A stretch of DNA of 64,000 bases from Rhodococcus sp. H36-A4 (GTDB lineage: Bacteria; Actinomycetota; Actinomycetes; Mycobacteriales; Mycobacteriaceae): contig NZ_JAPVLQ010000001.1 in NCBI RefSeq assembly GCF_027158005.1, positions 558,001 through 622,000 of the forward strand, given 5' to 3'. Both the position numbers and the translations under genes were made by a program. The notes under the pieces were generated by a model that did no database searches, was not told the DNA's origin, and saw only the letters and a program-made list of their open reading frames with translations. Positions 34,624 through 53,657 of this stretch are shown one piece after another (position 1 is the stretch's first letter; each line of letters begins with the position of its first letter).

Positions 34624-34711
34624 ATAGTGAGTATCGGATGTCGCTTACCGAACTTCGTGAATTCGACCACATTCACACGGCTCTGAATTACCGTCGTCGT
34701 TGCCCCGCACC

Positions 34712-37820: not shown

Positions 37821-38375
37821 GTGAGCAATGAGAACGCATCCGAAGAAGCCCGCAAAGGCCTGTTCGACGCGGTCAAGGGCAAAGCCAAGGAGGTTGTCGG
37901 GGCAGTAACCGGCAACGATTCCCTCACCACCGAGGGGCAACTTCAAAGCGCACAGGCCCGTGAACGCGCAGAGGCGAACGCCACCGAGATGGCAGCCCAA
38001 GCGCAATCAGAGGAGGCTGCCGAGGATCTCGCTGCCGTGCGAAATACCGCCGAGCAACAGCGCGATGCGGTCAGCGCGAGCGCCGAGTCCTCGGCAGAGA
38101 GCGCTCGTAGAGTCCAGCAAGCACAGCACGTCGCGGCCGAGAAGAAAAAGCATCAGACCGTCCGGGACGAGGTTGCCGACGCCGAGGTCGACGCACGCGC
38201 CGAACAGATCGAGGCGCTCGCAGAGGGCCAGGCCGACGCCGCAGCCGCGACGCAGGACGAGCTGAAGGCCGTGCAGGAGCATGGCGAAGAAGTGGCCGAG
38301 GCCGATGCAGCCCGGGCCGCAGCAGATCGTGCTCGACGCAACGCCGAATCATTGCGCGAAGACATCAACCCGTGA
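37821..38375 (+). CDS. CsbD-like protein with long Ala/Glu coiled coil
   Basis: The 184-residue protein begins at a GTG. Its N-terminus (GLFDAVKGKAKEVVGAVTGNDSLTTEGQLQSAQ) matches the CsbD stress-protein motif; the rest is a low-complexity Ala/Glu/Gln-rich helix likely to form a coiled coil. No signal or membrane helix is seen. CsbD proteins are induced by general stress in Bacillus; their role is unknown. It is followed directly by a second coiled-coil gene, with a GTG overlap possible at 38372. Confidence 0.75.
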   Translation: MSNENASEEARKGLFDAVKGKAKEVVGAVTGNDSLTTEGQLQSAQARERAEANATEMAAQAQSEEAAEDLAAVRNTAEQQRDAVSASAESSAESARRVQQAQHVAAEKKKHQTVRDEVADAEVDARAEQIEALAEGQADAAAATQDELKAVQEHGEEVAEADAARAAADRARRNAESLREDINP

Positions 38376-38392
38376 ACAGGAGCAGTCCTTCC

Positions 38393-39043
38393 ATGAACGT
38401 ACTCAGTATTCCGCTGTCCATTCTCCGATTTCAGTACAAGATAATCCGAATCCCATTGCACCTGTTCGAAACATCCGTCGTGCAGACGTGGAGCACCGAC
38501 GCACCCGCTCGCATTGCGTACGAGCGCACTGTCGGATCGCTCGACAAGGCCGTCGGCAGCGTGCTCGGCGACAAAGATGTCGAGCAACGTGGCGAAGCTC
38601 AGGTCCACCTCAGCGAAGAGTTGGCCAAGGCCCGCAAGCTCGAAGCCGACGCCGACGCGACCCAGGCGGTCGCAGACCAGAAGCTGAGGGCCTCTCGCGA
38701 AGCAGCCGAGAAGGAACGTAAGGCTGCCGCCTTAGCCGCAGACGACGCTGCACGTAAGGCACGTGAGCAGGCCGAACAGCGCAAGCAGCAGGCCGCTCAG
38801 GAAGCCGAAGCGAAGGCTGCCGCGGAGAAGAAGCAGGCCGACGAGGTGGCCGAATCACGGGCAGCGCAAGCCCGCGCCGCGGAGAAGAAGCAGCACGAGC
38901 AGATCGCCAAGTCCGAGAAAGCCGCGGCCGCGCCCGCAGAATCCGAGCTGGCGGACGCCGCTGAAAGCAAAGAAGAGGCCGAGGACAAGAAAGCCGAAGC
39001 AGCGCGTATCGAAAAGCTGTTCCTGGCAGAAAAGAACAGCTGA
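38393..39043 (+). CDS. Ala/Lys/Glu-rich coiled-coil protein with amphipathic N-terminus
   Basis: The 216-residue protein starts MNVLSIPLSILRFQYKIIRIPLHLFE, a membrane-binding amphipathic stretch, then a short CsbD-like segment (ERTVGSLDKAVGSVLGDKDVEQRGEAQ) and ~150 residues of charged Ala-rich helix. AGGAG stands ten bases before the ATG at 38393; a GTG at 38372 overlaps the previous gene. It is probably a partner of that gene: one soluble and one membrane-linked coiled-coil protein. A hairpin terminator follows. Family unknown beyond this. Confidence 0.7.
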   Translation: MNVLSIPLSILRFQYKIIRIPLHLFETSVVQTWSTDAPARIAYERTVGSLDKAVGSVLGDKDVEQRGEAQVHLSEELAKARKLEADADATQAVADQKLRASREAAEKERKAAALAADDAARKAREQAEQRKQQAAQEAEAKAAAEKKQADEVAESRAAQARAAEKKQHEQIAKSEKAAAAPAESELADAAESKEEAEDKKAEAARIEKLFLAEKNS

Positions 39044-39059
39044 ACAAGCAATCGAAAAG

Positions 39060-39089
39060 CCGAAAGCGTCCCTCCGGGGGCGCTTTCGG
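39060..39089. terminator. Hairpin terminator between convergent genes
   Basis: CCGAAAGCG (39060-39068) pairs perfectly with CGCTTTCGG (39081-39089), with extra G:C pairs inside. It closes the coiled-coil operon and the convergent glxA-type gene. Confidence 0.65.
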
Positions 39090-39093
39090 TGTT

Positions 39094-40041
39094 TCAGCGC
39101 CCTCGGAACGTCGATCGATAGACGCTGGGCGAAACACCTATCTCCGCCATCAACTGTTGACGCATCGAGGTCGCCGTCCCGAATCCAGACTCGGCCGCGA
39201 CCCTGTCAATGCTGTGGTCGGTGTTTTCCAGTAGCTCACGTGCGCGGTGAATGCGTTGCTGAGCAATCCATTTGGCCGGTGATATTCCGACTTCAGCCGT
39301 GAAACGGCGGGTGAAGGTCCGCACACTCATGGACAGTTTCGCCGCGAGAACCTCGAGACTCAAAGGTGCGTCGAGGTTCGCGACCGCCCAAGCTTGCGCC
39401 GCCGCCGTGGACGTTGTGGTCGAGCGCGGTATCGGCATTTCGATGTATTGTGCCTGGCCGCCGCTGCGGTGCGGTGGCACCACGGTCCCCCGCGCAACGC
39501 GGTTGGCCACGGATGAGCCGAAGTCCTCACGAATCATGTAGAGACACAGATCGATTCCCGACGCTTCCCCTGCGGAAGTCAAGATGTTGCCGTCGTGAGT
39601 GTAAAGAACGTCAGGCTCGAGCTTCACCTGCGGATAGCGCGCGCGGAACTGCTCTGCAGACTTCCAGTGGGTGGTCGCGCGGCGCCCATCGAGCAATCCC
39701 AGTGCGGCAAGAACGAACGAGCCGGTGCAGATCGACGCAATCCGGGCATCTGCAGGAACTCTGTCAAACATGATCATGTTCGCCGATGAGCGTTCGCCGT
39801 AGTCCAGATCGGAGGCTGGAACGATCACGGTGTCGGCGTGTTCGAGCGCTTCGACGCCGTGCCGAACGTATATCTCGGCGTCGGTGTCGGTTCGCACCGG
39901 ACCCGGCACCGACGTGCATGTCACGACGTCGTACAACGCCGTTCCGTCTTCTGATCGCGCCTGTCCGAACAATCGATGCACGGTGCCGAATTCCATCGCG
40001 AGCAGTCCGTCGCGGACGAAAACGACGACTCTGTGAGTCAT
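39094..40041 (-). CDS. GlxA-type AraC regulator with DJ-1/PfpI domain
   Basis: The 315-residue protein has an N-terminal DJ-1/PfpI-like domain (HRVVVFVRDGLLAMEFGTVHRLFG; ASICTGSFVLAALGLLDGRRATTHW with the nucleophile-elbow Cys) and a C-terminal AraC double HTH (SLEVLAAKLSMSVRTFTRRFTAEVGISPAKWIAQQRIHRARELLENTDHSIDRVAAESGFGTATSMRQQL). The N-terminal domain probably senses a small ligand. Its first 16 codons and promoter are repeated, in truncated form, at 51017-51066, next to an intact oxidoreductase. So it was once the divergent partner of that gene and probably its regulator. Confidence 0.9.
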   Translation of the reverse strand: MTHRVVVFVRDGLLAMEFGTVHRLFGQARSEDGTALYDVVTCTSVPGPVRTDTDAEIYVRHGVEALEHADTVIVPASDLDYGERSSANMIMFDRVPADARIASICTGSFVLAALGLLDGRRATTHWKSAEQFRARYPQVKLEPDVLYTHDGNILTSAGEASGIDLCLYMIREDFGSSVANRVARGTVVPPHRSGGQAQYIEMPIPRSTTTSTAAAQAWAVANLDAPLSLEVLAAKLSMSVRTFTRRFTAEVGISPAKWIAQQRIHRARELLENTDHSIDRVAAESGFGTATSMRQQLMAEIGVSPSVYRSTFRGR

Positions 40042-40132
40042 GGCCTGATTCTTTCACATATTGTCTTCTCGGCCAGTTTCCGATTGCGGACAGAGGCGAG
40101 AGGCTCAGTGCATGAACATTCTGTGGGTCTTC
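39992..40132 (+). repeat. Left copy of 141-bp imperfect direct repeat
   Basis: This stretch matches 51017-51157 base for base in length with about 18 differences (roughly 87% identity by hand). It covers the first ~16 codons of the glxA-like gene, the intergenic promoter and the first seven codons of the oxidoreductase. It marks the left end of an 11-kb gene insert. Confidence 0.85.
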
Positions 40133-40201
40133 TGTCAGTTTCAGAAGACGACTGCACGATGTCAGAAGTGGTGTGCATTCGTTCGTCGACTTGGTGAGTG
40201 A
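40112..40201 (+). pseudogene. Truncated 5' end of NAD(P)H-quinone oxidoreductase-like gene
   Basis: The frame MNILWVF at 40112 is identical to the start of the intact gene at 51137, then switches at 40133 to unrelated sequence and stops at 40201. It is a seven-codon stub left by rearrangement. Confidence 0.75.
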
Positions 40202-40220
40202 GGCCCGTTGGGTTCCTGGT

Positions 40221-40241
40221 GAGACAATAGATGTTTGTCTC
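40221..40241. promoter_or_regulatory. Inverted repeat before tetR (likely autoregulatory operator)
   Basis: GAGACAA and TTGTCTC form perfect 7-base arms around a 7-base spacer, 24 bases before the TetR ATG at 40265. Size and place fit autoregulation by that TetR protein. Confidence 0.5.
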
Positions 40242-40264
40242 GCTTGAGAGTAGGAGCTGTTGCG

Positions 40265-40864
40265 ATGTCGACGCGGAAGATAGATCCGGAGGCGGTGCGT
40301 CGGCGGGTTGTCGAAGCTACTGTCGGGTGCTTGGTCGAGCACGGGTATGCGGGGACGACGACGCAGCGGGTGCAGGTTCAGGCCGGTGTGTCCCGTGGCG
40401 CACTGCTACACCATTTCCCGAGCAAGCCGGTGATGTTTCTGGCTGCGGTGCAGCACGTGGGGGAACAACAGGATGTAGCTATCCGAGCGGCGGCCGAACG
40501 TCGCGTCAGCGGATCCGACCGATTGGAGTTCGCATTCGATGTGTTGCACGATGCGATGTCGGGACCCTTGTATCTGGCCGGCTACGAATTGTGGATGGCG
40601 GCGCGCACGGACGACGATCTACGTTCGGTCCTCACTCCGTACGAGCGGAAGGTCGGTCAGAACCTGCGAGAGCTGGGCGTCTTGATTTTCGGGCCCGAAT
40701 TCTCCACGCAGCCGGGGTTTCCGACTGCATTCGACGCGCTGGTTCAAGTCTTTCGCGGTCTGGCACTGACCGGAGTACTCCGCGAGAACCTTGATCGGGA
40801 GAACGAGTTGATGGCCGCATGGCGCTCGGTTTTCCCCGCAATGTGCAGCTTGACGCAGCCGTAG
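40265..40864 (+). CDS. TetR family transcriptional regulator
   Basis: The 199-residue protein has a TetR HTH (RRRVVEATVGCLVEHGYAGTTTQRVQVQAGVSRGALLHHFPSKPVMF, residues ~11-58) and a helical ligand domain. AGGAG lies eight bases before the ATG at 40265. It is the first gene inside the insert and converges with the MaoC-SDR-crotonase-ACAD operon; it may control that operon through the dyad at 44156. The repeat at 40221 suggests it also controls itself. Confidence 0.85.
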   Translation: MSTRKIDPEAVRRRVVEATVGCLVEHGYAGTTTQRVQVQAGVSRGALLHHFPSKPVMFLAAVQHVGEQQDVAIRAAAERRVSGSDRLEFAFDVLHDAMSGPLYLAGYELWMAARTDDDLRSVLTPYERKVGQNLRELGVLIFGPEFSTQPGFPTAFDALVQVFRGLALTGVLRENLDRENELMAAWRSVFPAMCSLTQP

Positions 40865-40900
40865 CCCGCTGGCCGTTGACGACGCGGTGTTCGACGCCCG

Positions 40901-41356
40901 TCATCGGTAGAGACGAATGACAGCCTCTGCCACGCACGCCGGCTTGATGGTGTCGGCAACCTCGATCGTCGCCGTCAGTGTCAGCTGCACGCAGTTGGTT
41001 GCCACTGGTTCCACGGCACTCACGACCGCACTCGCACGGATGCGCGCTCCGCTCGGGACCGGCGCGGGGAAGCGGACTTTGTTCGATCCGTAGTTCACCG
41101 CCATCGAAATTCCGCGGACTTCGAACAGTTCCGGTAGCAATCGAGCCAATATCGACACAGTGAGATATCCGTGTGCGACGGTGGTCCCGAACGGTCCGCT
41201 GCGCGCTCGTTCCGGGTCGGTGTGAATCCACTGATGATCACCGGTGGCGTCTGCGAACTGTTCGATCGTGTTTTGGTGCAACAGAATCCAGTCGGTCACA
41301 CCCAGGCTCTGACCGACTGCGCCGCCGAGTGAATCGATCGAATCGAAGGTACGCAT
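40901..41356 (-). CDS. MaoC-type R-specific enoyl-CoA hydratase
   Basis: The 151-residue single hot-dog protein has FADATGDHQWIHTDPERARSGPFGTTVAHGYLTVSIL, the hydratase-2 motif with catalytic Asp and His, and is close in form to the mycobacterial Rv0130 (HtdZ) type. It acts alone rather than as a HadAB pair. Its ATG shares one base with the SDR stop (TGATG). It would hydrate a 2-enoyl-CoA to the (3R)-hydroxy product for the SDR upstream. Confidence 0.85.
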   Translation of the reverse strand: MRTFDSIDSLGGAVGQSLGVTDWILLHQNTIEQFADATGDHQWIHTDPERARSGPFGTTVAHGYLTVSILARLLPELFEVRGISMAVNYGSNKVRFPAPVPSGARIRASAVVSAVEPVATNCVQLTLTATIEVADTIKPACVAEAVIRLYR

Positions 41357-42183
41357 CAGCCGATCAGCCCACCACTACACGCGAGAACCTCACCGGTGAT
41401 GTAGTCGGACTCGGGTAGGCACAACAGGTACACGGCACCTGCTGCTTCCTCCGGAGTGCCGAGACGACCCAGCGGTGCGATGTGTTGCGCTGCTTGCAGG
41501 ATCATCGGATTGACTCCTACTTTGATCTCGCGCCCCTCGATCTCGACAGTGGCGTCACCGTCGGCGCTGGCTTCGGTGAGCCTGGTCTTGATCAAACCGA
41601 ACGCCACTGCATTGACGGTGACCTGATAGCGGCCCCATTCCTTGGCCATGGCCTTGGTCATTCCAAGGATGCCTGCTTTGGCTGAGGAGTAGTTGATTTG
41701 GCCGGCATTTCCGTAGAGACCGGCGAGCGAGGAGATATTGACCACCTTGCGGGTACTACGTTGTCCTGTAGCTGCTTCACGCTTCGCGGCGGCGCTGATG
41801 ACAGGTTGGGCTGCCCGCAGGATCCGATACGGCGCTGTGAGGTGGACGGCGATAATTGCGTCCCACTGTTCGTCGCTCGTCTTCTGTATGACGCCGTCCC
41901 AGGTGTATCCGGCGTTGTTGACGATGATGTCGAGTCCGCCGAACGAGCCCACCGCGGTCTCGACGAATCGTTCAGCGAATCCTTCTGTCGTCACGTTTCC
42001 TGAGCAGGCGACGGCGGTGCCGCCAGCGCTTTCGATGTCGGCAACCACAGCTGCTGCGGCGGTAGGGTCCAGATCGTTGACGACCACGTTGGCACCATGA
42101 GCAGCCAGTTTGTGTGCGATGGCAGCCCCGATGCCGCGCCCGCTACCACTGACCAGCGCGGTTTTGCCAGTGAGAGTGTTCAT
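41356..42183 (-). CDS. SDR, 3-hydroxyacyl-CoA dehydrogenase-like (paralogue of 26064 gene)
   Basis: The 275-residue SDR has SGSGRGIGAAIA, NDLD, NNAGYTWDGVIQK, catalytic Ser in NISSLAG and YSSAK. It is about 70% identical by eye to the SDR at 26064, including the insert TEASADGDATVEIEGREIKVGVNP. It overlaps the crotonase gene (four bases) and the MaoC gene (one base), so the operon is tightly coupled. It should oxidise (3R)-hydroxyacyl-CoA with NAD. Confidence 0.85.
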   Translation of the reverse strand: MNTLTGKTALVSGSGRGIGAAIAHKLAAHGANVVVNDLDPTAAAAVVADIESAGGTAVACSGNVTTEGFAERFVETAVGSFGGLDIIVNNAGYTWDGVIQKTSDEQWDAIIAVHLTAPYRILRAAQPVISAAAKREAATGQRSTRKVVNISSLAGLYGNAGQINYSSAKAGILGMTKAMAKEWGRYQVTVNAVAFGLIKTRLTEASADGDATVEIEGREIKVGVNPMILQAAQHIAPLGRLGTPEEAAGAVYLLCLPESDYITGEVLACSGGLIG

Positions 42184-42974
42184 TGCCCAATAATCCCTTC
42201 TGGTGAATCGAACGATCCGTGACGTCCGGCACCGTCGGCGAAGCGGCCGGCACCTGCGATGGCATCGCTGCCGATCGAGACGAGCCCATGACGGTATTCG
42301 TTTGCAGCAGCGTCTGTTTCGGACAAGCCATGCTGTTCCAGCAAAGACATGCGGTCGCGGCGCATGCAGGTCTGCGGGAATGCACTGAGCTGGTGGGCCA
42401 GTTCGACAGCCGCACGAACCGCCTCACCAGCAGGCACCACTCGATGAACCAGACCGATCCGCAGTGCCTCGTCCGCATCGACCGGACGACCGGTGAGAAT
42501 CAGATCCATTGCACGACTCGTACCGATCAACCGCGAAAGACGGTAGGTACCGCCGTCGATGAGGGGTACACCCCATCGGCGGCAGAAGACCCCGAAAATC
42601 GAGTCCTGTGCTGCAACACGTAGATCCGCCCAAGCCGCAACTTCGAGGCCACCGGCGACAGCGTGTCCTTCGATCGCCGCGATCACCGGTTTCGACAGAC
42701 GCATGCGGGTCATACCCATCGGAGCGTCACCATCTGGCGCAAACCGATTCGCATCGCCTGCCGCCACTGCCTTCAGATCGGCTCCCGCGCAGAACGAGTC
42801 ACCGCGACCGTGCAGTACGGCTACAGACGCAGCAGGATCAGCATCGAATGCGCGAAACGCATCCGCCAACGCTTCCGCCGTGACTCGGTCGACAGCATTG
42901 CGAACGTGTGTGCGGTTGATGGCAATGAGCGTGACGGGTCCGTCACGTTCGATGAGCACAGTGGCTTCGGTCAT
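42180..42974 (-). CDS. Enoyl-CoA hydratase/isomerase (crotonase) family protein
   Basis: The 264-residue protein has the oxyanion-hole segment GRGDSFCAGADLKAV and EGHAVAGGLEVAAWADLRVAA, which keeps the first catalytic Glu (GGLEV); the second is replaced (RRWGVPLIDGG). That pattern is common in EchA-type members with hydratase or isomerase activity. It lies between the ACAD and SDR genes and would act on the enoyl-CoA made by the dehydrogenase, perhaps on a different chain or stereoisomer from the MaoC enzyme. Confidence 0.87.
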   Translation of the reverse strand: MTEATVLIERDGPVTLIAINRTHVRNAVDRVTAEALADAFRAFDADPAASVAVLHGRGDSFCAGADLKAVAAGDANRFAPDGDAPMGMTRMRLSKPVIAAIEGHAVAGGLEVAAWADLRVAAQDSIFGVFCRRWGVPLIDGGTYRLSRLIGTSRAMDLILTGRPVDADEALRIGLVHRVVPAGEAVRAAVELAHQLSAFPQTCMRRDRMSLLEQHGLSETDAAANEYRHGLVSIGSDAIAGAGRFADGAGRHGSFDSPEGIIGQ

Positions 42975-42990
42975 GTTTCACCTTTTCCGG

Positions 42991-44154
42991 TTACAACGAG
43001 CGAGCGATGAGTTCTTTCATAATTTCGTTCGCCCCTCCGTAGATACGTTGGGCGCGCGCGTTGGCGTACATCTCAGCGATGGGATACTCGCGCATGTAGC
43101 CGTTGCCGCCGAAGAGCTGCAGACAACGGTCGACGACCTGACACTGAACGTCGGTTGTCCAATACTTGGCCATCGACGCGGTCGCTGCGTCGAGGGTGCC
43201 GTCCAGGTGTTTGGTGACGCAATCGTCGACGAAGACTTTCGCCACGCGGGCGAGTGTTGCGCACTCCGCGAGCTCGAATTTCACGTGCTGCTTCGCGAAC
43301 AGCGGCTTCCCGAAAGCGTGGCGATTCTTGGTGTAATCCACCGCGAGATCGACCGCACGCTGTGCGCTCACCGCTGCTGCGACCGCGAGGAGCAGACGCT
43401 CCTGCGGCAGCTGCGTCATCAGCTGAACGAATCCCTGGCCCTCGACTTCACCGAGAAGGCAATCAGCGGGCACCGAGGCCCCGTCGAAGAACAGTTCCGC
43501 GGTGTCTCCGCTGTGTTGGCCGAGCTTGTCCAGCACCCGGCCACGTTGAAATCCGGGACAGTCGTTCGCATCGACCAGGAACAGGGATATACCGTGCGCT
43601 CCACCAGCGGGGTCGGTCTTGGCGGCGAGCAGGATCAAGTCGGCGGAACCGCCGTTGGTGATGAACGTCTTCGCACCGTCGATCAGATACTCGTCGCCCC
43701 GTCGGAGTGCCCGAGTCGACATGCTCGCCAGGTCCGATCCCGCCCCCGGCTCGGTCATCGCGATCGCGGCCACGACCTCACCCAACGCCATGCCAGGAAG
43801 CCAGCGATGACGCTGCTCCTCGGTACCGTACGCAAGCAAATATGGTGCCACGATGCCGCTATGGACATGGTTGCCGAACCCTGGCTCTTCGATGCGACTT
43901 TGCTCCTCCAGTACCACCATGTCATGTGCGAAGGAGCCTCCACCACCGCCGTACTCCTCTGGTACCGCCAGACACAGAAGACCGAGCTTTCCCGCCTCGA
44001 GCCAGAAGTCCCGATCAATGCATCGTTGCTCGGCCCAGCGCTTTTGGTTAGGAACGGCGACGGTCTCGAAGAATTGCCGGGCGGTGGCCCGCAATGCCAA
44101 TGCTTCGTCGTCCGATGCCCAAGAAGGCGCGGTAACTGCCATATTCATCGTCAC
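42991..44154 (-). CDS. Acyl-CoA dehydrogenase (paralogue of 24901 gene)
   Basis: The 387-residue flavoenzyme matches the ACAD at 24901 along its length: PEEYGGGGGSFAHD, AMTEPGAGSDLA, LPQERLLLAVA (with the probable catalytic Glu), CLQLFGGNGYM and RIYGGANEIMKELIARSL. It introduces the first double bond in an acyl-CoA. The start may be the GTG at 44154 or the ATGs at 44148 or 44142; none has a good ribosome-binding site, so a leaderless message is possible. A perfect 14-base-arm dyad begins two bases upstream. Confidence 0.9.
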   Translation of the reverse strand: MTMNMAVTAPSWASDDEALALRATARQFFETVAVPNQKRWAEQRCIDRDFWLEAGKLGLLCLAVPEEYGGGGGSFAHDMVVLEEQSRIEEPGFGNHVHSGIVAPYLLAYGTEEQRHRWLPGMALGEVVAAIAMTEPGAGSDLASMSTRALRRGDEYLIDGAKTFITNGGSADLILLAAKTDPAGGAHGISLFLVDANDCPGFQRGRVLDKLGQHSGDTAELFFDGASVPADCLLGEVEGQGFVQLMTQLPQERLLLAVAAAVSAQRAVDLAVDYTKNRHAFGKPLFAKQHVKFELAECATLARVAKVFVDDCVTKHLDGTLDAATASMAKYWTTDVQCQVVDRCLQLFGGNGYMREYPIAEMYANARAQRIYGGANEIMKELIARSL

Positions 44155-44155
44155 A

Positions 44156-44187
44156 CCGTAACAGTCCGTTTGGACGGACTGTTACGG
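44156..44187. promoter_or_regulatory. Perfect 14-base-arm operator between ACAD and PaaX genes
   Basis: CCGTAACAGTCCGT and ACGGACTGTTACGG flank a 4-base spacer. It lies at the start of the ACAD operon and 52 bases before the PaaX gene, so it can control both. Length and symmetry fit a TetR dimer better than PaaX. The half-site ACTGTTACCG recurs at 45058. Confidence 0.65.
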
Positions 44188-44238
44188 CTTGCGGGGAGCG
44201 GTGGACCCTGACCCTCCGCCCGTCGCTATCATCTGCCG

Positions 44239-44982
44239 ATGACCTCGGGCGGGACACGCGTGCGCAAGCTGACGGCGCGATCTGCAGTCCTCAGCGCGCT
44301 GCTGGGCGCACATCCAGCAGAAGCGTCGGCGGCCGGAATTCTGGCCATGGCGACCAAACTAGGTTTCCAGCATTCAGCGGTTCGAGTGGCGCTCACCCGA
44401 TTGGTGGCCGCCGGCGACCTCGACCGAAGCGAAGGAATGTACAGGCTTTCGCCACGCCTGATCCGCCGACAACGCCGACAGGATTTTGCGTTGCAGCACG
44501 AAGCGAGCACTTGGGACGGCAGTTGGCGTCTTGCGATCGTTACCACCGGTGCAGAAGATTCCACGGACCGCGCTGCATTGCGAACAGCTTTGCGCGCAGC
44601 CAAATTCGGCGAGGTGCGCGAGGGCGTATGGGGGCGTCCGAACAACATTCCGACCACCGTGCGGGCCGACGCGAGCGAACGATTGAGTCTGTTCACTGCC
44701 GTTCCCGACGGCGACCCCGCCGAACTGGTGGAGCACGCGTTCGCACCGCAGGGTTGGGCCGCGGTCGCCGAGGAGTTGATCCGAATGCTGCGTGACGCGC
44801 CCGCCCTGGTCGAACGTTTCGAGATCGCGGCGGCCATCGTCCGGCACATCCTCGATGATCCACTCCTACCTGCCGAAGTCCTTCCGGCCGACTGGCCAGG
44901 GCATGACATCCGAGAGACCTACGAGGCGTTTCGGTCCGAGTTGACGGCACTGGCCGGAGGAATTCTGACAGCTACCAAGTAG
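44239..44982 (+). CDS. PaaX family transcriptional regulator
   Basis: The 247-residue protein has the PaaX layout: N-terminal winged helix (TARSAVLSALLGAHPAEASAAGILAMATKLGFQHSAVRVALTRLVAAGDLDRSEGMYRLSPRL), central domain from TWDGSWRLAIVTTG, and a C-terminal domain with PLLPAEVLPADWPG. PaaX represses phenylacetate genes until phenylacetyl-CoA binds; relatives answer to other acyl-CoAs. Here it stands between an ACAD operon and the AurF-like operon and may sense an aryl- or acyl-CoA of the insert's pathway. No paa genes are present in the window. Confidence 0.87.
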   Translation: MTSGGTRVRKLTARSAVLSALLGAHPAEASAAGILAMATKLGFQHSAVRVALTRLVAAGDLDRSEGMYRLSPRLIRRQRRQDFALQHEASTWDGSWRLAIVTTGAEDSTDRAALRTALRAAKFGEVREGVWGRPNNIPTTVRADASERLSLFTAVPDGDPAELVEHAFAPQGWAAVAEELIRMLRDAPALVERFEIAAAIVRHILDDPLLPAEVLPADWPGHDIRETYEAFRSELTALAGGILTATK

Positions 44983-45044
44983 TGGTCAGCGGTCGATTTT
45001 TCGACAACCATGCCCTTAAATTTACAAATCTCTAGCGCTTGTCG

Positions 45045-45086
45045 TCCAAGATGTAATACTGTTACCGCAAGTCACATCATCTTGGA
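45045..45086. promoter_or_regulatory. Inverted repeat upstream of the diiron oxygenase gene
   Basis: TCCAAGATG (45045-45053) pairs with CATCTTGGA (45078-45086) across 24 bases, which include GTAA-5-TTAC and ACTGTTACCG, the half-site of the dyad at 44156. It lies just before the ribosome-binding site of the gene at 45107 and may be an operator or a leader hairpin. Confidence 0.45.
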
Positions 45087-45106
45087 TCCAACGGCAGGAG
45101 CTTGGC

Positions 45107-45994
45107 ATGGCGTTACACGCAGGCGACATGGAAGAGACCGCAGAACGGCTCGTACGTAGCGCAGGGTTGATGTCGTTCGACGTCGACAAAGATATCGACT
45201 GGTCCGCAGGGTTCGATCCGGACCTGGCTTACTTCTCGGAGCACCGCTGTTCTCTGTACGGAACACCGACGTGGGACGCCTGGTCGCGCGACCAGAGGGT
45301 CGAATTCACGAAACATCAGCTGGCCTCGATGCACGCGATCGAAGCGTGGGTCGAAACCCTGCTGATGCAGATGTTGATCCGTCAGGTGTACAGCGCGGAC
45401 AGTGCAAGCGCCTATGCATGGCACTTGTACACCGAGATCGCCGACGAATGCCGACACTCGACGATGTTCGGCCGGATGGTGGCGGCCACCGAAGCACCCA
45501 CCTATCGTGCGCCTTGGTGGGCCCGCCAGGGAGGGAAAGTCTTCGCTGCGACCGCTCCTCCAGCTGTCGCGATGGCGCTGGCGATGTTCTTCGAGGAATA
45601 CGGAGACGCACTGCAGCGTGAGTCCGCCGGAGACGAAGCCCTACAGCCGCTGGTTCGACGGATCAGCCACATCCATGTGATCGAAGAATCACGTCACCTC
45701 AAGTTCGCGCGCGCAGAACTGATCGAGCGACTGCCGAACTCGCCCGTGCAGAAGGCGTTGGTGTCGGCCTTGTACGGGCCCATCGCACTATTGGTGACGC
45801 GCTTCATGGTCTCGCCGCAGGTGTACGAGAACTGCGGTTTGGACAAGCGTGCAGCCACACGTGCAGCGCGGAAGAACAAGCATTGGCGGCAGACGCAGAA
45901 GTGGGCCTCCGAGCACGCGATGCGCACTTTCGCCGAACTCGGCATTCGAAACCGTTTCGGCGACGCGCTGTGCCGCGTCGGCGGCGTCCTCTGA
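45107..45994 (+). CDS. AurF-like diiron oxygenase
   Basis: The 295-residue helical protein shows two carboxylate/His pairs for a diiron site: HLYTEIADECRHSTMFGRM (Glu110, Glu114, His117) and HVIEESRHLKFARAEL (Glu193, Glu194, His197), with a likely further Glu at 84. This is the pattern of AurF-type oxygenases, which oxidise arylamines to nitro compounds or hydroxylate other substrates. AGGAG lies six bases before the ATG. It is seven bases upstream of the ferredoxin-reductase gene that could feed it electrons. Substrate unknown. Confidence 0.85.
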   Translation: MALHAGDMEETAERLVRSAGLMSFDVDKDIDWSAGFDPDLAYFSEHRCSLYGTPTWDAWSRDQRVEFTKHQLASMHAIEAWVETLLMQMLIRQVYSADSASAYAWHLYTEIADECRHSTMFGRMVAATEAPTYRAPWWARQGGKVFAATAPPAVAMALAMFFEEYGDALQRESAGDEALQPLVRRISHIHVIEESRHLKFARAELIERLPNSPVQKALVSALYGPIALLVTRFMVSPQVYENCGLDKRAATRAARKNKHWRQTQKWASEHAMRTFAELGIRNRFGDALCRVGGVL

Positions 45995-46001
45995 GCCCGC
46001 G

Positions 46002-47618
46002 GTGGTCCACGTCATCACGGGTGCCTGTTGCAGCGACGCGCGATGCGTCACTGCTTGCCCTCTCGATGTCATCCATCCCCGCCCCGACGAACCCGAGTTC
46101 GCGACCGCGGAAATGCTGCACATCGATCCGAAGACCTGTATAGATTGCGGCGCGTGCGCCGATGCGTGTCCCGTCGATGCGATCGTTCCGATCGACAAGC
46201 TTCTCCCGTCACAGCAGCACTTCGTGGAGGTGAACGCCGACTACTTCGTCGACCGCCCTGTCGCACCGTTCTCGATCGGGCCTACTCGCGCCATCCCCGT
46301 GCTACCACCCGAACTCGGAGGTGTGCGGGTAGCAATCGTCGGATCCGGCCCAGCAGGGATGTATGCGGCCGAAGAACTGTTGCGGCACAACGACATCGAC
46401 GTCGATGTGTTCGAGCGACTCCTCACCCCGTGGGGGCTCGTACGCTCCGGCGTGGCACCGGATCATCCTGAGACGAAAGCAGTTGCGGCCACGTTCGAAA
46501 CGATTGCGCGCGAGAAAAATCTGCGCCTACGACTCGGTGTCGAGATCGGTACCGACGTCTCGATCGACAACCTACGCAAGCACTACCACGCCGTCATCGT
46601 CGCCACTGGCGCACCGATCGGCCGCGCACTGGACATCCCGGGAACGACCCTTCCGGGGAGCCTGTCCGCGCACGAGTTCGCCGGGTGGTACAACGGCCAT
46701 CCCGATGCAGCGGACAAGCAATTCGATCTCTCGAGCGCTCGAGCGATCGTAGTCGGGAACGGCAACGTCGCCCTCGATATCGTACGCATCCTGCTCGCCG
46801 ATCCGGCCGATCTCGCTGACACAGACATCGCTCCGCACGCGCTGGAAGCACTGCGACGAAGCCGCGTCGAGGAAGTCCAGATCCTCGGGCGTCGGGGGCC
46901 CCGAGACGCGGCATTCAGTGAGTCGGAACTGACCGCGCTCGCAACGATTCCCGGCCTCGGCATCGACGTTGAACCACACCCCGAACTGGAGGACATGCGC
47001 GAGCTCCATCCCAGCGAAGGTGCGCTGCGTCGCAAACTGCGCTTCCTGCGGACACGCTCAGTTGATGGAAGTCGGGGCGACAAGCGAATCGTATTTCGGT
47101 TCGACACCCGCGTGACGGCAATCCACGACGCGGCTCCTGCGCTGTCGGTACAGATATCCACGGGCACCACCACCGAGATGGTCCCTGCCGCACTGGTGAT
47201 CCATGCGATCGGACACGATTCTCAGCCGATACCAGGAATCCCCACACACCCTTCGATCGCGAGGACACCGAACGCGAAGGGACGCATCACCGACGATGTC
47301 GACGGCACCCCGATCACCGGCCTCTACACCGTCGGCTGGCACAAACGCGGCGCAACCGGCGTGATCGGAACCAATCGCAATTGTTCCCAGGAAACCGTCG
47401 GAGCTCTCCTTGCAGACCTGGCCGACGGTCGGCTCACACAGCCGACCTCCGCAGTCGCCACGCTGGACTCGATGCTCGCCGCACGGGGGATTGAGACCAC
47501 AGACCTTCGAGGGTGGCACCGGATCGATACCGAAGAACGACGTAGAGGCCAGGCGGCATCGCGTCCACGCAGCAAGATCGTGCGCTACAGCGAACTGAGC
47601 AATACCGCACATCCCTGA
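46002..47618 (+). CDS. Ferredoxin-NADP reductase with N-terminal ferredoxin domain (FprB-like)
   Basis: The 538-residue protein joins a 7Fe/8Fe-type ferredoxin (CCSDARCVTACPLD and CIDCGACADACPVDA, residues ~8-55) to an adrenodoxin-reductase-like flavoprotein: VRVAIVGSGPAGMYAAEELL (FAD), AIVVGNGNVALDIVRILL (NADP), and GWHKRGATGVIGTNRNCSQETV near the end. The order and length are those of mycobacterial FprB. It starts at a GTG at 46002, seven bases after the oxygenase stop, so it is very probably the electron donor of that diiron enzyme. It carries electrons from NADPH via FAD to the iron-sulfur centres. Confidence 0.92.
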   Translation: MVHVITGACCSDARCVTACPLDVIHPRPDEPEFATAEMLHIDPKTCIDCGACADACPVDAIVPIDKLLPSQQHFVEVNADYFVDRPVAPFSIGPTRAIPVLPPELGGVRVAIVGSGPAGMYAAEELLRHNDIDVDVFERLLTPWGLVRSGVAPDHPETKAVAATFETIAREKNLRLRLGVEIGTDVSIDNLRKHYHAVIVATGAPIGRALDIPGTTLPGSLSAHEFAGWYNGHPDAADKQFDLSSARAIVVGNGNVALDIVRILLADPADLADTDIAPHALEALRRSRVEEVQILGRRGPRDAAFSESELTALATIPGLGIDVEPHPELEDMRELHPSEGALRRKLRFLRTRSVDGSRGDKRIVFRFDTRVTAIHDAAPALSVQISTGTTTEMVPAALVIHAIGHDSQPIPGIPTHPSIARTPNAKGRITDDVDGTPITGLYTVGWHKRGATGVIGTNRNCSQETVGALLADLADGRLTQPTSAVATLDSMLAARGIETTDLRGWHRIDTEERRRGQAASRPRSKIVRYSELSNTAHP

Positions 47619-47642
47619 CCGAAAACCGAAGGAATCGAACAC

Positions 47643-49295
47643 ATGGCACGCCACGAAGTCACCAACCAGGTCCCCGAGCTCGTCGACTACGACGCATCAG
47701 ATCAACCCTCGGTTCTCGAAGCGATGCATCGTGCCGGTGCCGATCACGCACTCGACGAGCTGCACCGCGTCGGACGCCTGGCCGGCAGCGCCGAGGCGAT
47801 CGGATGGGGTGACGCGGCCGAGGCCAACCGACCGGTGTTGAGGACCCACGATCGCTACGGCAACCGCGTCGACGAGGTTGTCTACGACCCGAGTTATCAC
47901 CGACTGATGGGTCGGTCAGTCGAACTCGGGCTGGCCGGAACTGCCTGGACGAACCCCACCCCGAACCCACATCTGGTGCGCGCCGCGAAGTTCAGTGTGT
48001 GGGGGCAGGTCGACGCCGGTCACGGTTGCCCGATCTCGATGACCTACGGCGTCGTCCCGGCGTTGCGCGCCAACGCCGAGCTCTCTGCGCAGTACGAGCC
48101 ACTACTGACCTCCACCGAATACGACCCCGGCCTACGAGACCCGTTGTCGAAGAACGGACTCATTGCAGGAATGTCCATGACGGAGAAGCAAGGTGGATCG
48201 GATGTTCGCGCGAACACCTCTGCGGCGAAACCGATGTCCGACGGCACGTACCGCATCACCGGGCACAAGTGGTTCACCTCCGCGCCCATGTCCGACGTAT
48301 TCCTGGTACTCGCTCAAGCGCCGGGCGGCCTCTCGTGCTTCTTCGTTCCACGGGTGTTGCCGGACGGCACCCGAAACACGTTTGCGCTACAGCGATTAAA
48401 GGACAAGCTGGGCAATCACTCGAACGCCAGTAGTGAAGTCGAGTATGACAACACCGTCGGCTGGCTGGTCGGCGAGGAGGGCCGTGGTGTTCCGACCATC
48501 GTCGAGATGGTCAACATGACTCGTCTGGATTGCACGATCGGTTCGGCGACGGGCATGCGCGTCGGCGTGACTCAGGCGGCGCATCACGCCGCACACCGCC
48601 GCGCTTTCGGTGCCACGCTGGCCGACCAACCGCTGATGCGCAATGTTCTCGCCGACCTCGCGGTCGAAGCCGAGGCTGCGACGACGGTTGCACTGTGGCT
48701 GGCCGACATCACCGACAAAGCAGTATCAGGAGACACGCAGGCCGATGCTCTGCGCCGAATCTCGTTGGCTGTGAGCAAATACTATGTGTGCAAACGGGCA
48801 CCGATGCATGCCGCCGAAGCACTGGAGTGCCTGGGCGGAAACGGTTACGTCGAAGAGTCCCGGATGCCGCGGCTCTACCGCGAGGCACCGCTGATGTCGA
48901 TCTGGGAAGGATCGGGCAACGTCGCCGCACTCGACGCGCTCCGCGCGATGGCCAAACAACCGCACACCCTCACCGCCTTCTTCGACGAGGTGAAGCTGGC
49001 CAAAGGCGCTGATTCACATCTGGATTCGGCAATCTCAGAGCTCGAAACGCAATTCGCCGACTTCGCCACGATTCAGTATCGCGCACGACGCGTCGTGGGA
49101 AAGATGGCGCAGGTTCTGCAGGGTTCGCTGCTGGTTCGGCACGGGCACCCCGCCGTCGCCGATGCGTTTACGGTGAGCAGGCTCGGCAACGATCACGGTG
49201 ATGTGTTCGGCACACTCCCCCACGGCACGGACACCGCAGCCATCATCGAACGTGCGACACCGAAACTCGGTATGGCAGAGACGGCCGCGAGATGA
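47643..49295 (+). CDS. AidB-like acyl-CoA dehydrogenase
   Basis: The 550-residue protein has the long form of the ACAD family: MSMTEKQGGSDVRANT (FAD/substrate loop), ITGHKWFTSAPMSDVFLVLAQAPGG, CLGGNGYVEESRMPRLYREAPLMSIWEGSGN (C-terminal active-site part), and a C-terminal helical extension. Those features define AidB-like enzymes, whose E. coli member binds DNA and is induced by alkylation; catabolic relatives also exist. It is codirectional with FprB-like (24-base gap) and overlaps the crotonase gene by four bases, so a catabolic role in this operon is more likely than DNA protection. Confidence 0.88.
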   Translation: MARHEVTNQVPELVDYDASDQPSVLEAMHRAGADHALDELHRVGRLAGSAEAIGWGDAAEANRPVLRTHDRYGNRVDEVVYDPSYHRLMGRSVELGLAGTAWTNPTPNPHLVRAAKFSVWGQVDAGHGCPISMTYGVVPALRANAELSAQYEPLLTSTEYDPGLRDPLSKNGLIAGMSMTEKQGGSDVRANTSAAKPMSDGTYRITGHKWFTSAPMSDVFLVLAQAPGGLSCFFVPRVLPDGTRNTFALQRLKDKLGNHSNASSEVEYDNTVGWLVGEEGRGVPTIVEMVNMTRLDCTIGSATGMRVGVTQAAHHAAHRRAFGATLADQPLMRNVLADLAVEAEAATTVALWLADITDKAVSGDTQADALRRISLAVSKYYVCKRAPMHAAEALECLGGNGYVEESRMPRLYREAPLMSIWEGSGNVAALDALRAMAKQPHTLTAFFDEVKLAKGADSHLDSAISELETQFADFATIQYRARRVVGKMAQVLQGSLLVRHGHPAVADAFTVSRLGNDHGDVFGTLPHGTDTAAIIERATPKLGMAETAAR

Positions 49296-50311
49296 CCGAC
49301 GATGCGAACCATTCCGGTAGCCACACCGCAAGGTGGTACGAGAACTGGACCGAAGCTCCGGACTCACCCTGGCAGAACCGTCCCGAACCCGACTACGACT
49401 ATCACTACCCGACCCTGACCTACGAGCGAGACGGACGGATCGCCCGAATCACGTTCAACCGTCCGGAGAATGGCAACTCCATCACTCCCGATACCCCGCG
49501 TGACCTCACGCACGCGGTCGAGCGAGCCGATCTGGACCCGCGTGTACACGTGATTCTGGTCTCGGGCCGCGGCAAAGGTTTTTGCGGCGGCTATGACTTG
49601 GACATGTTCGCGGAGAAGCGCTTCGAGACCGGGGACAGTGTCGATAAGGTGACCGGAACCGTGTTGGATCCTGTGGTGAACGCGGTCAATCACGATCCGT
49701 CGGGTACGTGGGACCCGATGATCGACTACGCGATGATGAGCCGATGCAACAAGGGCTTTTCCAGTCTGTTGCATGCAAACAAGCCGACCGTGGCGAAACT
49801 GCACGGTTTCGCCATTGCTGGCGGCACCGACATCGCGTTGTTCAGCGACCAGATCATCTGCGCCGATGACACCAAGATCGGCTACCCTCCCACCCGCACC
49901 TGGGGTATCCCCGCGGCCGGGATGTGGGCGCACCGCCTCGGCGACGCACGCGCCAAACGTCTCCTGTTCACCGGCGACAGCATCAGCGGCAAGCAGGCAG
50001 CCGAGTGGGGACTGGCGGTAGAGTCGTGCCCAGCCACCGAACTCGACGATCGCACCGAGGCACTGGTCGAGCGGATCGCCCGGATGCCGGTCAATCAGTT
50101 GATGATGGCCAAATTGGCGCTGAACTCAGCGCTGCTGTCCCAGGGTGTGGCCAACTCCGGCATGATCAGCACCGTTTTCGACGGCATATCACGTCACACC
50201 AGGGAGGGCTACGCCTTTCAGCTACGCGCCGCCACAGTCGGTTTCCGGGAGGCAGTCCGTGAGCGCGACGAGCCATACGGCGACCACAAGCGCGCCCAGT
50301 TCGAGCGCTGA
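49292..50311 (+). CDS. Crotonase-family protein
   Basis: The 339-residue protein is longer than ordinary crotonases (about 260) owing to a Tyr/Trp-rich N-terminal lead (RWYENWTEAPDSPWQNRPEPDYDYHYPTL) and an insert around residues 105-145. The core has GRGKGFCGGYDLDMF and HGFAIAGGTDIALFSDQIICADDTKIGYPPTRTWG, with Asp in place of the first catalytic Glu. The start overlaps the AidB-like stop (ATGA). It is the last gene of the AurF-like operon. Reaction is uncertain. Confidence 0.87.
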   Translation: MTDDANHSGSHTARWYENWTEAPDSPWQNRPEPDYDYHYPTLTYERDGRIARITFNRPENGNSITPDTPRDLTHAVERADLDPRVHVILVSGRGKGFCGGYDLDMFAEKRFETGDSVDKVTGTVLDPVVNAVNHDPSGTWDPMIDYAMMSRCNKGFSSLLHANKPTVAKLHGFAIAGGTDIALFSDQIICADDTKIGYPPTRTWGIPAAGMWAHRLGDARAKRLLFTGDSISGKQAAEWGLAVESCPATELDDRTEALVERIARMPVNQLMMAKLALNSALLSQGVANSGMISTVFDGISRHTREGYAFQLRAATVGFREAVRERDEPYGDHKRAQFER

Positions 50312-51016
50312 CTTCAATCCTGGAGTCCGGACGAATCCGCAGCACACCATAGTCTTTGTGAGGAAGAGAAGTGCTGCACCGTCGCGTGAGGATGAATCAA
50401 CGCCGGTCACTATCGGGAGCGGTGACCGGCCCCCTGATGCTGAGATGTAGGTCCGGCACGTGGGCTGCATGTCACTCGACTCCGTCGATTGATCCTTCGT
50501 CCGTTTCTGATTCGAGGACCTCGAAAAGGTCCTGCAGCAATTTGTCTGCACGGGCTTCGACGTCAGCGAGAGCGGAATCGACGCCACCGAGAAGGTCGTG
50601 GGCGTCTCTGCGTGCTCGTGTTCCGTGTTCGTAGTAACCGGAGTCGAGTTCCACCGTAGACACGGGCTCGCGTGCGAGTTCGCGTTCTGGGAGTTCTTCC
50701 CGAACACGCACCAGCAGGTGGACGGGCGCTTGCCCGTTCAGGTGCATTCGAGCGATGTCGGCTACTGCCCGCGAGGTGAGAGGGGGTCAGATACGGGCGA
50801 CCGATCGGTTGACGCTCGTTCTCGTCGACGATCATCACGTCGACAACGGTGTGATCGATCTGAACCTGATCGAGAATCCCCGACACCAGAGGTGGAATAT
50901 CGCCGGCGGACTGACGTGGGCGAGCGGGATCCGGTCCACCACGAGATCGAGCCACCGCCCACCGCTCCCCCGACGCCGTCAGCACACCGGCCTCCACGAC
51001 GTGGAGCTTGTCTGGG
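50312..51016. other. Degenerate 0.7-kb right end of the insert
   Basis: No intact gene is seen. The minus strand holds an unrecognised 91-codon frame (50472-50747) and a transposase fragment (50785-51018) that appear to be scraps joined out of frame. The remaining part, 50312-50471, has no coding signal. Confidence 0.5.
50472..50747 (-). CDS. Short acidic frame, unknown, possibly a gene fragment
   Basis: The 91-codon frame encodes an acidic helical product (RVREELPERELAREPVSTVELDSGYY, then DSALADVEARADKLLQDLFEVLESETDEG). Codon use is plausible for the genome, and the frame is open upstream of the ATG to about 50780, next to the transposase fragment in another frame. It may be the end of a larger gene cut by rearrangement. 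I do not recognise it. Confidence 0.3.
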   Translation of the reverse strand: MHLNGQAPVHLLVRVREELPERELAREPVSTVELDSGYYEHGTRARRDAHDLLGGVDSALADVEARADKLLQDLFEVLESETDEGSIDGVE

Positions 51017-51018
51017 TC
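50785..51018 (-). mobile_element. Transposase (rve integrase core) fragment
   Basis: About 78 codons encode ASGERWAVARSRGG...GILDQVQIDHTVVDVMIVDE and then NERQPIGRPYLT. The run QIDHT followed by a V-D-x-x-x-V-D strand and IGRPYLT is the first-Asp region of DDE integrases of the Mu/TnsB/IS481 kind. The rest of the catalytic core is absent. It is fused in frame to the first 16 codons of the truncated glxA copy and abuts the right direct repeat. Confidence 0.6.
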
Positions 51019-51157
51019 CATCGCAAGCAGTCCGTCGCGGACAAAAACGACGACACTGTGAGTCATGGCCTGATTCTTTCACATGTTGTCTTCTCAGCCA
51101 GTGTCCGAATCTGAGCATGAGCGAAAGACTCAGCGCATGAACATTTTGTGGGTCTTC
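51017..51157 (+). repeat. Right copy of 141-bp imperfect direct repeat
   Basis: Same length and orientation as 39992-40132, about 87% identical by hand. It contains the first 16 codons of a truncated glxA copy (reading leftward from 51066: THSVVVFVRDGLLAM), the promoter, and the start of the intact oxidoreductase gene. It ends within codon seven of that gene. Confidence 0.85.
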
Positions 51158-51901
51158 GCTCATCCCGACACTCGATCGCTCAACGGGGCGCTCCGAGATG
51201 CGGCGCTTGCCGAACTAGGGAAGGCAGGCCACCGCGTCGAGCAGTCCGATCTGTATCGAATGAACTGGAATCCTGTGGTCAGGGCGGACGACTACGGCCA
51301 CGATCCAACTGGCCGCCTGCATGTCGCGACGGCGTCGAGCACTGCCCTTCGACGCGGATCTCTGGCGGAGGACATCGTCACCGAGCAAGCGAAACTGCGC
51401 CGGGCGGACGCCGTCGTATTGCAGTTTCCGTTGTGGTGGTTCTCGATGCCTGCGATTCTGAAAGGCTGGGTGGACCGCGTTTTCGTCGAAGGGTTCGGGT
51501 ATGGAATCAGATCCGAAGGTGGTTCGACTCGGCGCTACGGCGACGGCCTGATGTCCGGCAAGCGTGCACTCGTCGTGACGAGCATGGGCGGCAGCGAATA
51601 TACGGTGTCCACGCGCGGAATCAACGGGTCTCTGGAGGAACTATTGTTCCCCATTCATCATGGAATCTTTTGGTATACAGGCATGTCCGTACTGCCGCCC
51701 GTCCTCGTCGCCAGTGCGGATCGGATGACGCCGAAGGATTACCGAGCGGCAGTGGACGGGCTCGCGGATCGCTTGTCGACCCTGTTCACCGATTCGCCCA
51801 TTGCTTACCGCAGCCAGAGCGGCGGCAACTACGACGAAAACTTCGTGCTGCGTTCCGATCTGGCGCCGGACGAGTTCGGTGTCCGGGTCCACGTGGGCTG
51901 A
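51137..51901 (+). CDS. NAD(P)H-quinone oxidoreductase-like flavodoxin-fold protein
   Basis: The 254-residue protein has the flavodoxin-fold features of the NQO/KefF/MdaB group: NILWVFAHPDTRSLNGALRDAAL (FMN/FAD phosphate loop), VLQFPLWWFSMPAILKGWVDRVF (isoalloxazine-binding turn) and VVTSMGGSEYTVS. It would reduce quinones or related electrophiles by two electrons with NAD(P)H. The start ATG lies inside the direct repeat. Its expected divergent regulator (GlxA type) is only a 16-codon stub here; the full regulator lies 11 kb to the left. Confidence 0.87.
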   Translation: MNILWVFAHPDTRSLNGALRDAALAELGKAGHRVEQSDLYRMNWNPVVRADDYGHDPTGRLHVATASSTALRRGSLAEDIVTEQAKLRRADAVVLQFPLWWFSMPAILKGWVDRVFVEGFGYGIRSEGGSTRRYGDGLMSGKRALVVTSMGGSEYTVSTRGINGSLEELLFPIHHGIFWYTGMSVLPPVLVASADRMTPKDYRAAVDGLADRLSTLFTDSPIAYRSQSGGNYDENFVLRSDLAPDEFGVRVHVG

Positions 51902-51908
51902 CCCACAA

Positions 51909-53657
51909 CTATCGCCCCTGCCAGGCCGACCACAGTTCCGCGTAACGCCCACCCTCCGCGACGAGTTCGACGTGTGGCCCTTGTTCGAGGATTTTGCCGT
52001 GTTCGAGGACGACGACGCGGTCGGCGGCGGCGGCTTGGGTAAGCCGGTGTGCCACAACGAGTGTGCTGCGTCCGCGGGTTGCCGCTGCCGCTGCCGCCTC
52101 CAGGTCTCGGGCGCCGGCGCTCCCGGCTTCGGCGGTCGCTTCGTCGAGTACGGCGACGGCGGGGTCGGCGAGGACGAGTCGCGCAAGTGCCAGCTGTTGT
52201 GATTGGGCGGAGGTCAACTCGTGTCCGCCTTCTCCGACAACGGTATCCACGCCGCTGCCCAGGGTGTCGACCCACCGGCCGGCGCCGACGGTGTCGAGTG
52301 CTGCGCGGACGTCCGCTCGGCTCGCATCCGGTGCCGCAAGTAGTAGATCCTCGATCAGCGGGCCCGCGAAGACGTGTACTTCCTGGCTGACGATCGCGAT
52401 ATGTCTGCGCAGCCCTTTCTCGCCCAGTTCGGCGAGCGTCGCACCGCCGATCCGTACGGTGCCGGAGGTCGAATCGATGGAGCCCGCTGCGATTGCTGCG
52501 ATTGTCGACTTGCCCGCACCGGTGGATCCGACGAGTGCGACGGTCTCCCCCGCACCGACGGTCAGGTCGATTCCGTGCAGAACTTCGTGGCCGGTGTCGT
52601 ACGAGTGTCGGAGATCGGTGATCTGCAGCGTTCCGTCGACCGGGACCGCACCTGTCCCAGGGGATCGCTCATCGGGTACGTCGATGACGCCGACCAGTCG
52701 CGCGAGGCTGGCGCCCGCCGATTGCACGTCGTCGAAGGAGAACATGAGCATGCCGATCGGGTTGAACAGCCGGTGAAACAGCAGCGCAGCTGCGGTTACC
52801 TGGCCGACGGTCACGTGATCATCCTGAACCAGCAGGAATCCGGCGGCCAGAATTACTGACAGTCCGACGCATTCGGCACGGTTGCTGCGCGCACCGAAGC
52901 GTGTGAAGAGTCGGAACACGTCGATGCCGATGTCTCGAGCCTTGCCCGACGCCTTGTCGATTTCGGCCAGGTGTGTGTCTTCGAGTCCGTAGGCGCGAAC
53001 GGTGCGTGCGCCCTGCATGCTGCTGATGAGTGCCTGGGATCGCTCGCCCATGGCGACGCGCTCGGCGGCGTAGAGAGGTGCCGATTTCGGTAGGTACCAG
53101 CGCAGGGCCAGCACGTACATCGGGATGGCGACCATGCCTGCGAGCCCGAGACGCCAGTCCAGGCTCAGCATCGCGACCACGCTCAACGATACGAGGAGAA
53201 TCGCGGAGACGATGTTGGGGATGACCTCACCGATCGACTTCGCCATGACTGCGACGTCGTCGCCGACGCGGGAAAGTAAGTCTCCCTTGCCGACTCGTTC
53301 GAGTGTGCCGATCGGCAGATGCAGTGCGCGCCGAAGTACCCGTTCGCGCAGCGTCGCGAGAGTCCGCTCGCCGAGCGTGCTGATCATGTAGGTGCTCAGC
53401 GCCGTGAAGATGCCTCCGATGACGGCGGCGGTGGTGATGACGACCACCACGCTCACGATCGTCGACGTCGGGGCACCTTCGGTGACGCGGTCGACGAGGA
53501 CGCCGAAGACGTAGACGGGGATGAGTGACATGGCCGCCGAGACGGCACTGATCGCGAGGGTGAGGAGAGCAAGTCCCCGTTGGGCGCGTATTTCGCCCGA
53601 CAGGTAGGCCCACGACCGCTTACCCGTCGCGATGGGGAGAAGTTCCGGTGTGGTCAT
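51909..53657 (-). CDS. ABC exporter half-transporter with intact Walker A/B, degenerate signature
   Basis: The 582-residue protein has six membrane helices (residues ~25-305) and an ATPase domain with Walker A ALVGSTGAGKST, Walker B VAVLDEAT (catalytic Glu present) and a weak signature LTSAQSQQLALARL in place of LSGGQ. It overlaps its partner gene by four bases. In a heterodimer its Walker motifs would face the good LSGGQ of the partner and form the one working ATP site. Substrates of such exporters include drugs, lipids and peptides; none can be named. Confidence 0.9.
   Translation of the reverse strand: MTTPELLPIATGKRSWAYLSGEIRAQRGLALLTLAISAVSAAMSLIPVYVFGVLVDRVTEGAPTSTIVSVVVVITTAAVIGGIFTALSTYMISTLGERTLATLRERVLRRALHLPIGTLERVGKGDLLSRVGDDVAVMAKSIGEVIPNIVSAILLVSLSVVAMLSLDWRLGLAGMVAIPMYVLALRWYLPKSAPLYAAERVAMGERSQALISSMQGARTVRAYGLEDTHLAEIDKASGKARDIGIDVFRLFTRFGARSNRAECVGLSVILAAGFLLVQDDHVTVGQVTAAALLFHRLFNPIGMLMFSFDDVQSAGASLARLVGVIDVPDERSPGTGAVPVDGTLQITDLRHSYDTGHEVLHGIDLTVGAGETVALVGSTGAGKSTIAAIAAGSIDSTSGTVRIGGATLAELGEKGLRRHIAIVSQEVHVFAGPLIEDLLLAAPDASRADVRAALDTVGAGRWVDTLGSGVDTVVGEGGHELTSAQSQQLALARLVLADPAVAVLDEATAEAGSAGARDLEAAAAAATRGRSTLVVAHRLTQAAAADRVVVLEHGKILEQGPHVELVAEGGRYAELWSAWQGR

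Follow-up and report, generated by a model that had tools for sequence, protein, structure and literature searches.

In Rhodococcus sp. H36-A4, a regulator gene and an oxidoreductase gene whose first codons lie side by side in each of two copies of a direct repeat are themselves 11 kb apart, with ten further genes between them. This arrangement raises the question of what the intervening DNA is, how it came to lie there, and why the 141-bp repeat stands on both sides of it. We analysed it within a window of 64,000 nucleotides (positions 558,001 to 622,000 of contig NZ_JAPVLQ010000001.1, assembly GCF_027158005.1), to which all coordinates refer unless another contig is named.

The two repeat copies (39992-40132 and 51017-51157) have the same orientation, are separated by 11025 bp from start to start, and agree at 123 of 141 positions, with 18 differing; the length, orientation, roughly 87% identity and gene stubs described in an earlier sequence-only reading are all borne out. 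Within the window, the match of one copy to the other (BLAST E 7e-45) is far above chance level. Both copies, read on the plus strand, comprise glxA codons 1-16, a 70-bp intergenic region and oxidoreductase codons 1-7. The left copy holds the start of the whole glxA-type gene (39094..40041, minus strand), encoding an intact GlxA/FtrA-type regulator with DJ-1/PfpI and AraC-type helix-turn-helix domains, together with an oxidoreductase stub of seven codons (MNILWVF). The right copy holds a glxA stub of 16 codons (MTHSVVVFVRDGLLAM) and the start of the whole gene for an intact flavodoxin-fold NAD(P)H oxidoreductase (51137..51901, plus strand). The intergenic region (40042-40111 and 51067-51136, 70 bp each) contains a box of approximately ATTCTTTCACATGTTG, which recurs, slightly altered, in the 10 other genus pairs that were aligned and is a candidate promoter or operator, now present twice. 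Both glxA and the oxidoreductase gene keep their coding sequence and all 70 bp of intergenic DNA, so the duplication seems to have left the two genes, along with their likely control region, unharmed. A repeat family common across the genome, which would have told against the insertion model of the earlier reading, can be ruled out: with the left copy as query, just two places in the organism's own genome are returned at E <= 0.001. Elsewhere in the window, an 85-bp partly palindromic repeat occurs in two copies that are 89% identical (34183-34273 and 34704-34795) and flank a stretch beside a tRNA-Thr gene (34836-34910); an Rfam search of that region returned no family besides tRNA.

An empty site was sought in close genomes, the check that had been suggested for an insertion into one divergent pair, and it is present in the sister genome G029. 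There, the flanks of the insert (38001-40132 at 93.0% identity and 51017-53700 at 94.3%) overlap on one stretch, in which a single 141-bp unit joins the glxA/oxidoreductase pair with nothing between. The oxidoreductase gene is adjacent and divergent to glxA in all 20 other genus genomes in which both were located; 36 were searched, 20 giving a locus that covers most of glxA and the other 16 giving short, weak or no matches. Among those 16, the outer flanks join directly in three close relatives, G030, G021 and G020 (L114, L115 and L116, respectively), with the whole pair absent, so the glxA/oxidoreductase pair is itself a variable unit in the group. These comparisons indicate that the insert entered a pre-existing pair, as had been proposed. 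A second proposal, recombination between two paralogous glxA/oxidoreductase pairs, would fit the 13% divergence of the repeats, but searches of the genome at the DNA level gave no second pair, and the left boundary of the insert is an exact transposon end. We regard this origin as very improbable, the data fitting two alleles of one locus.

The transposon end begins exactly at 40133, the first base past the left repeat copy, whose final base it abuts. It is a 25-bp terminal inverted repeat of the Tn402/Tn5053 type, resembling the tniA-distal kind (40133..40157, plus strand); a subterminal repeat comes next and extends to about 40178. The window has a single match to the 25-base pattern, 100 shuffles gave none, and no second terminal repeat was found in the window within 3 mismatches. 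A published terminal repeat of a class 1 integron differs from that of the window by one base (PMC8248536), and the Tn402/Tn5053 family is characterized by 25-bp terminal repeats and 5-bp target duplications (PMC7765201). The right edge consists of three fragments on the minus strand: a remnant of an accessory gene found in related tni elements, coding for its C-terminal part and with no Pfam family (50505..50785), tniA residues about 150-208 at 86% identity (50786..50957), and tniA residues 1-21 including the ATG (50959..51021). The right-edge stretch is thus the start of the transposase gene, tniA, with its own terminal repeat lost. An open reading frame at 50563-51066 was considered as a gene and rejected; it has no Pfam family and is glxA codons 1-16 run on into the tniA pieces. 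From the set of tniA, tniB and tniQ, the window contains fragments of tniA only. Short high-identity matches to the terminal stretch at 40133 occur in many of 37 genus genomes, as do matches to the right-edge stretch.

Intact relatives in the genus supply the comparison. One of them (L065) encodes a complete TniA that has rve and Mu-transpos_C domains, with TniB and TniQ after it; across its whole length, this TniA shares 60.6% identity with the TniA of proteobacterial plasmids. Of 37 genus genomes, 20 have TniB matches at E <= 1e-50, only strong matches being counted because Pfam TniB matches occur in 13 of 14 control genomes. Among 10 related elements, chosen since their two ends face each other, three (in G007, G014 and G028) have perfect 5-bp target duplications, which are absent from the other seven; two kinds of end occur among the ten, and the left end in the window resembles the tniA-distal one. 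The tni elements of about 18 kb on L112 (G023) and L113 (G028) have further conserved open reading frames beyond tniQ. Accessory genes of this sort were suspected by eye to be tyrosine recombinases, and the two that were searched against Pfam (in L066) gave no family. In the organism's own genome, the other TniA match is a single broken one on contig C22, where 79040-80461 (G000:C22:79040-80461) appears as a second Tn402-like relic with a tniA fragment interrupted by three stops and a terminal-repeat match; TniB matches in this genome reach a weak level only, as in most control genomes.

We therefore identify the insert, on the evidence of its terminus and gene remnants, as a decayed Tn402/Tn5053-like transposon, a relic without the means to move by itself. 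It shares with the family the 25-bp terminal repeat beginning TGTCA, the tniA, tniB and tniQ genes of its intact relatives, and the 5-bp target duplications seen in 3 of 10 of them. It differs in retaining one terminal repeat and fragments of tniA, in carrying catabolic genes rather than mercury or integron cargo, and in its target; Tn402/Tn5053 elements prefer res sites, whereas the site here is codon 7 of an oxidoreductase gene, which is not a res site as far as could be seen. The earlier reading was right that the DNA is an insertion, and it missed the transposon terminus (40133), the pieces of tniA (50786-51021), the microhomology at the right junction and the horizontal transfer of the cargo.

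All ten cargo genes fall, by Pfam, into the families that had been named from the sequence. They encode a TetR regulator (40268..40864, plus strand); on the minus strand, a MaoC-like dehydratase (40901..41356), a short-chain dehydrogenase (41356..42183), an enoyl-CoA hydratase (42180..42974) and an acyl-CoA dehydrogenase (42991..44154); and, again on the plus strand, a PaaX-like regulator (44239..44982), an AurF-like diiron oxygenase (45107..45994), a protein with ferredoxin and pyridine-nucleotide reductase domains whose true start lies inside the open reading frame (45849..47618) and which we take to be FprB-like, an AidB-like acyl-CoA dehydrogenase (47643..49295) and a second enoyl-CoA hydratase (49292..50311). 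With two acyl-CoA dehydrogenases, two enoyl-CoA hydratases, MaoC, a short-chain dehydrogenase and a diiron oxygenase with ferredoxin/reductase, the set points to a CoA-ester pathway. Paralogues of the short-chain dehydrogenase and acyl-CoA dehydrogenase genes at 41570-43878 (71-74% DNA identity) lie elsewhere in the window at 24898-26739, surrounded by cholesterol-oxidase-like, AMP-ligase, CoA-transferase, thiolase and enoyl-CoA hydratase genes. An open reading frame of 419 amino acids at 22463-23722 has TetR_N matches in two stretches and is perhaps a double TetR regulator.

The cargo is nearly identical to DNA of a distant congener. Positions 40133-50518 align at 97.1% identity over 10387 columns with the 18.3-kb contig NZ_JASISW010000039.1 of Rhodococcus sp. 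G-MC3 (G034), in a match that starts at the same terminal base and has other DNA outside it. Between the same two genomes, chromosomal identity is 73% for glxA and 77% for ABC genes, a contrast which shows horizontal transfer of the cargo between Rhodococcus species. At four-fold sites, counted over nine of the ten cargo genes with the gapped acyl-CoA dehydrogenase left out, the two versions differ at 102 of 1648. The AurF region is rare, being present at E <= 1e-60 in 2 of 401 family genomes including this one, and G-MC3 was the sole return of an AurF scan of named genome contigs. Beyond the shared cargo, the far side of the G-MC3 contig carries TetR, HpaB-like and AidB-like genes, and transposase fragments resembling those of insertion sequences, presumably IS1380-like by eye, lie near both of its ends (L063, about 16000-16600 and 200-830). 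Full texts searched for G-MC3 by strain name yielded no paper. Known plasmids were considered as carriers of the cargo and set aside: megablast of the insert gave two Variovorax records at about 75% identity over 6% of the query, and all 14 AurF relatives on plasmids are below 60% identity.

While the left boundary is a transposon end, the right one is not. Had transposition made the right edge, it should carry a terminal repeat followed by a 5-bp duplication; what lies there is the start of tniA, passing directly into glxA codon 16, which shows, in keeping with the earlier reading, that the 141-bp repeat is not a simple target-site duplication. Long target duplications exist for some elements, such as the IS1549/IS1634 group. 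As an origin of the present repeat, such a duplication, whether by an insertion sequence or a transposon, is nevertheless extremely improbable, as the right copy abuts the start of tniA rather than a transposon end, and the duplications seen in three complete relatives are of 5 bp. The junction itself carries a microhomology between the tniA start and glxA codons 13-16 (51017..51028, minus strand), where 11 of 12 bases agree between the parent sequences, with an exact run of 6. At random junctions, such frequencies are 8e-5 for 11 of 12 and 0.0022 for the 6-base exact run, so that this is microhomology of the kind looked for at an illegitimate junction. The genome also encodes Ku, a protein that could act in end joining.

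A join of tniA to glxA requires a second copy of the locus, and the repeats themselves bear on where it came from. In a three-way comparison, private changes number 5 in the left copy, 13 in the right and 2 in G029. Along the repeat, their order suggests a switch between positions 79 and 86 (permutation P 0.025, from 18 sites, a weak test in which unequal constraint along the repeat can explain part of the signal), and 11 of the 18 differences fall within a spacer of 26 bases, which is free to vary across the aligned pairs. Four-fold divergence from G029 is 37/181 in glxA, compared with 20/168, 48/387 and 50/394 in neighbouring genes, and 12/49 at the start of the oxidoreductase gene, compared with 10/84 in its remainder; with both glxA and the oxidoreductase start more divergent than their neighbours, no one imported side can be named. 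The simplest reading of 18 differences in 141 bp, 11 of them in the spacer, against 102 in 1648 four-fold sites of the cargo, is that the repeats were already different alleles of one locus when they were joined. Dating the repeats by their divergence, as had been suggested, yields an inequality only, because the direction of transfer is not fixed.

Unequal recombination at the tniA/glxA microhomology, between a chromosome bearing the transposon and an identical, untouched sister, would produce the same structure in one step at the same microhomology and make a donor allele unnecessary, the 141-bp copies diverging later by mutation. The same comparison of repeat and cargo divergence makes this origin unlikely in our judgement, although the objection would lose its force had G-MC3 acquired the cargo from the present lineage well after the insertion took place.

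The account that we favour, and hold with considerable confidence as a whole, is that of a decayed Tn402/Tn5053-like transposon with horizontally acquired cargo, whose 141-bp repeat stems from a join to a second allele. In this account the element inserted after oxidoreductase codon 7 in some strain, an event recorded by the exact terminus at 40133, and its transposition genes then, in the order that we reconstruct, decayed to fragments. The right terminus disappeared as the start of tniA became fused, at the 12-base microhomology, to glxA codon 16 of another copy of the locus; this join brought in a whole intergenic region together with an intact oxidoreductase gene and so created the direct repeat. 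The second allele was probably joined by recombination, either by single-crossover integration of a circle or by homology-facilitated illegitimate recombination (HFIR). Along the most likely route, a donor fragment from the glxA start to the tniA start would have circularised at the microhomology and then integrated into an intact pair by one homologous crossover; a switch at repeat positions 79-86 is as expected from a single crossover inside the 141 bp. Against the account as a whole counts the fact that 7 of the 10 end pairs in relatives have no 5-bp duplication and that the right end in the window is lost. Against the crossover route count the failure to find a donor strain and the weakness of the mosaic signal, which comes from 18 sites and is partly explicable by the less constrained spacer.

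HFIR of a linear donor fragment, with homologous recombination in glxA or the oxidoreductase gene at one end and an illegitimate join to glxA at the tniA microhomology at the other, is a close alternative to circle integration. PMC3240628 describes HFIR junctions as mostly having 3-10 bp of microhomology, and the more divergent oxidoreductase start looks as if imported; the same paper describes typical HFIR products as having deletions of recipient DNA, not duplications, and the allele switch within the repeat better suits a crossover inside it. We consider the linear route possible, if rather doubtful. In Escherichia coli, circularised fragments that entered by a single crossover left duplications of 109-950 bp (PMC3240628), and the present locus resembles such products in the partial duplication of a homologous locus, here 141 bp, and in its junction microhomology. 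The difference is that those were laboratory experiments, whereas here a natural scar is read and the route is reconstructed from it. Tn7706 of Rhodococcus erythropolis NI86/21 is likewise a Rhodococcus transposon with tniB/tniQ and passenger genes; it is set apart by its description as Tn7-like with tnsA and tnsB (PMC12915292).

The processes at work are known ones, of which the insert is a further case, of an ordinary type and with details that are unusually easy to read. Tn402-like transposons are best known for spreading class 1 integrons; here, a catabolic gene set has crossed between Rhodococcus species on such an element. Tentatively, and with the odds against it, dead Tn402-like elements of Rhodococcus may still spread catabolic cargo as free circles, with microhomology end-joining closing the circle and a single crossover within some 140 bp of common promoter sequence returning it to the chromosome, so that the control region is duplicated and no neighbour is lost. 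The locus preserves a readable scar of how the cargo of a dead transposon settles in a chromosome without the genes that it hit being destroyed: the divergent control region was duplicated whole, and the regulator and the oxidoreductase are therefore both intact, 11 kb apart.
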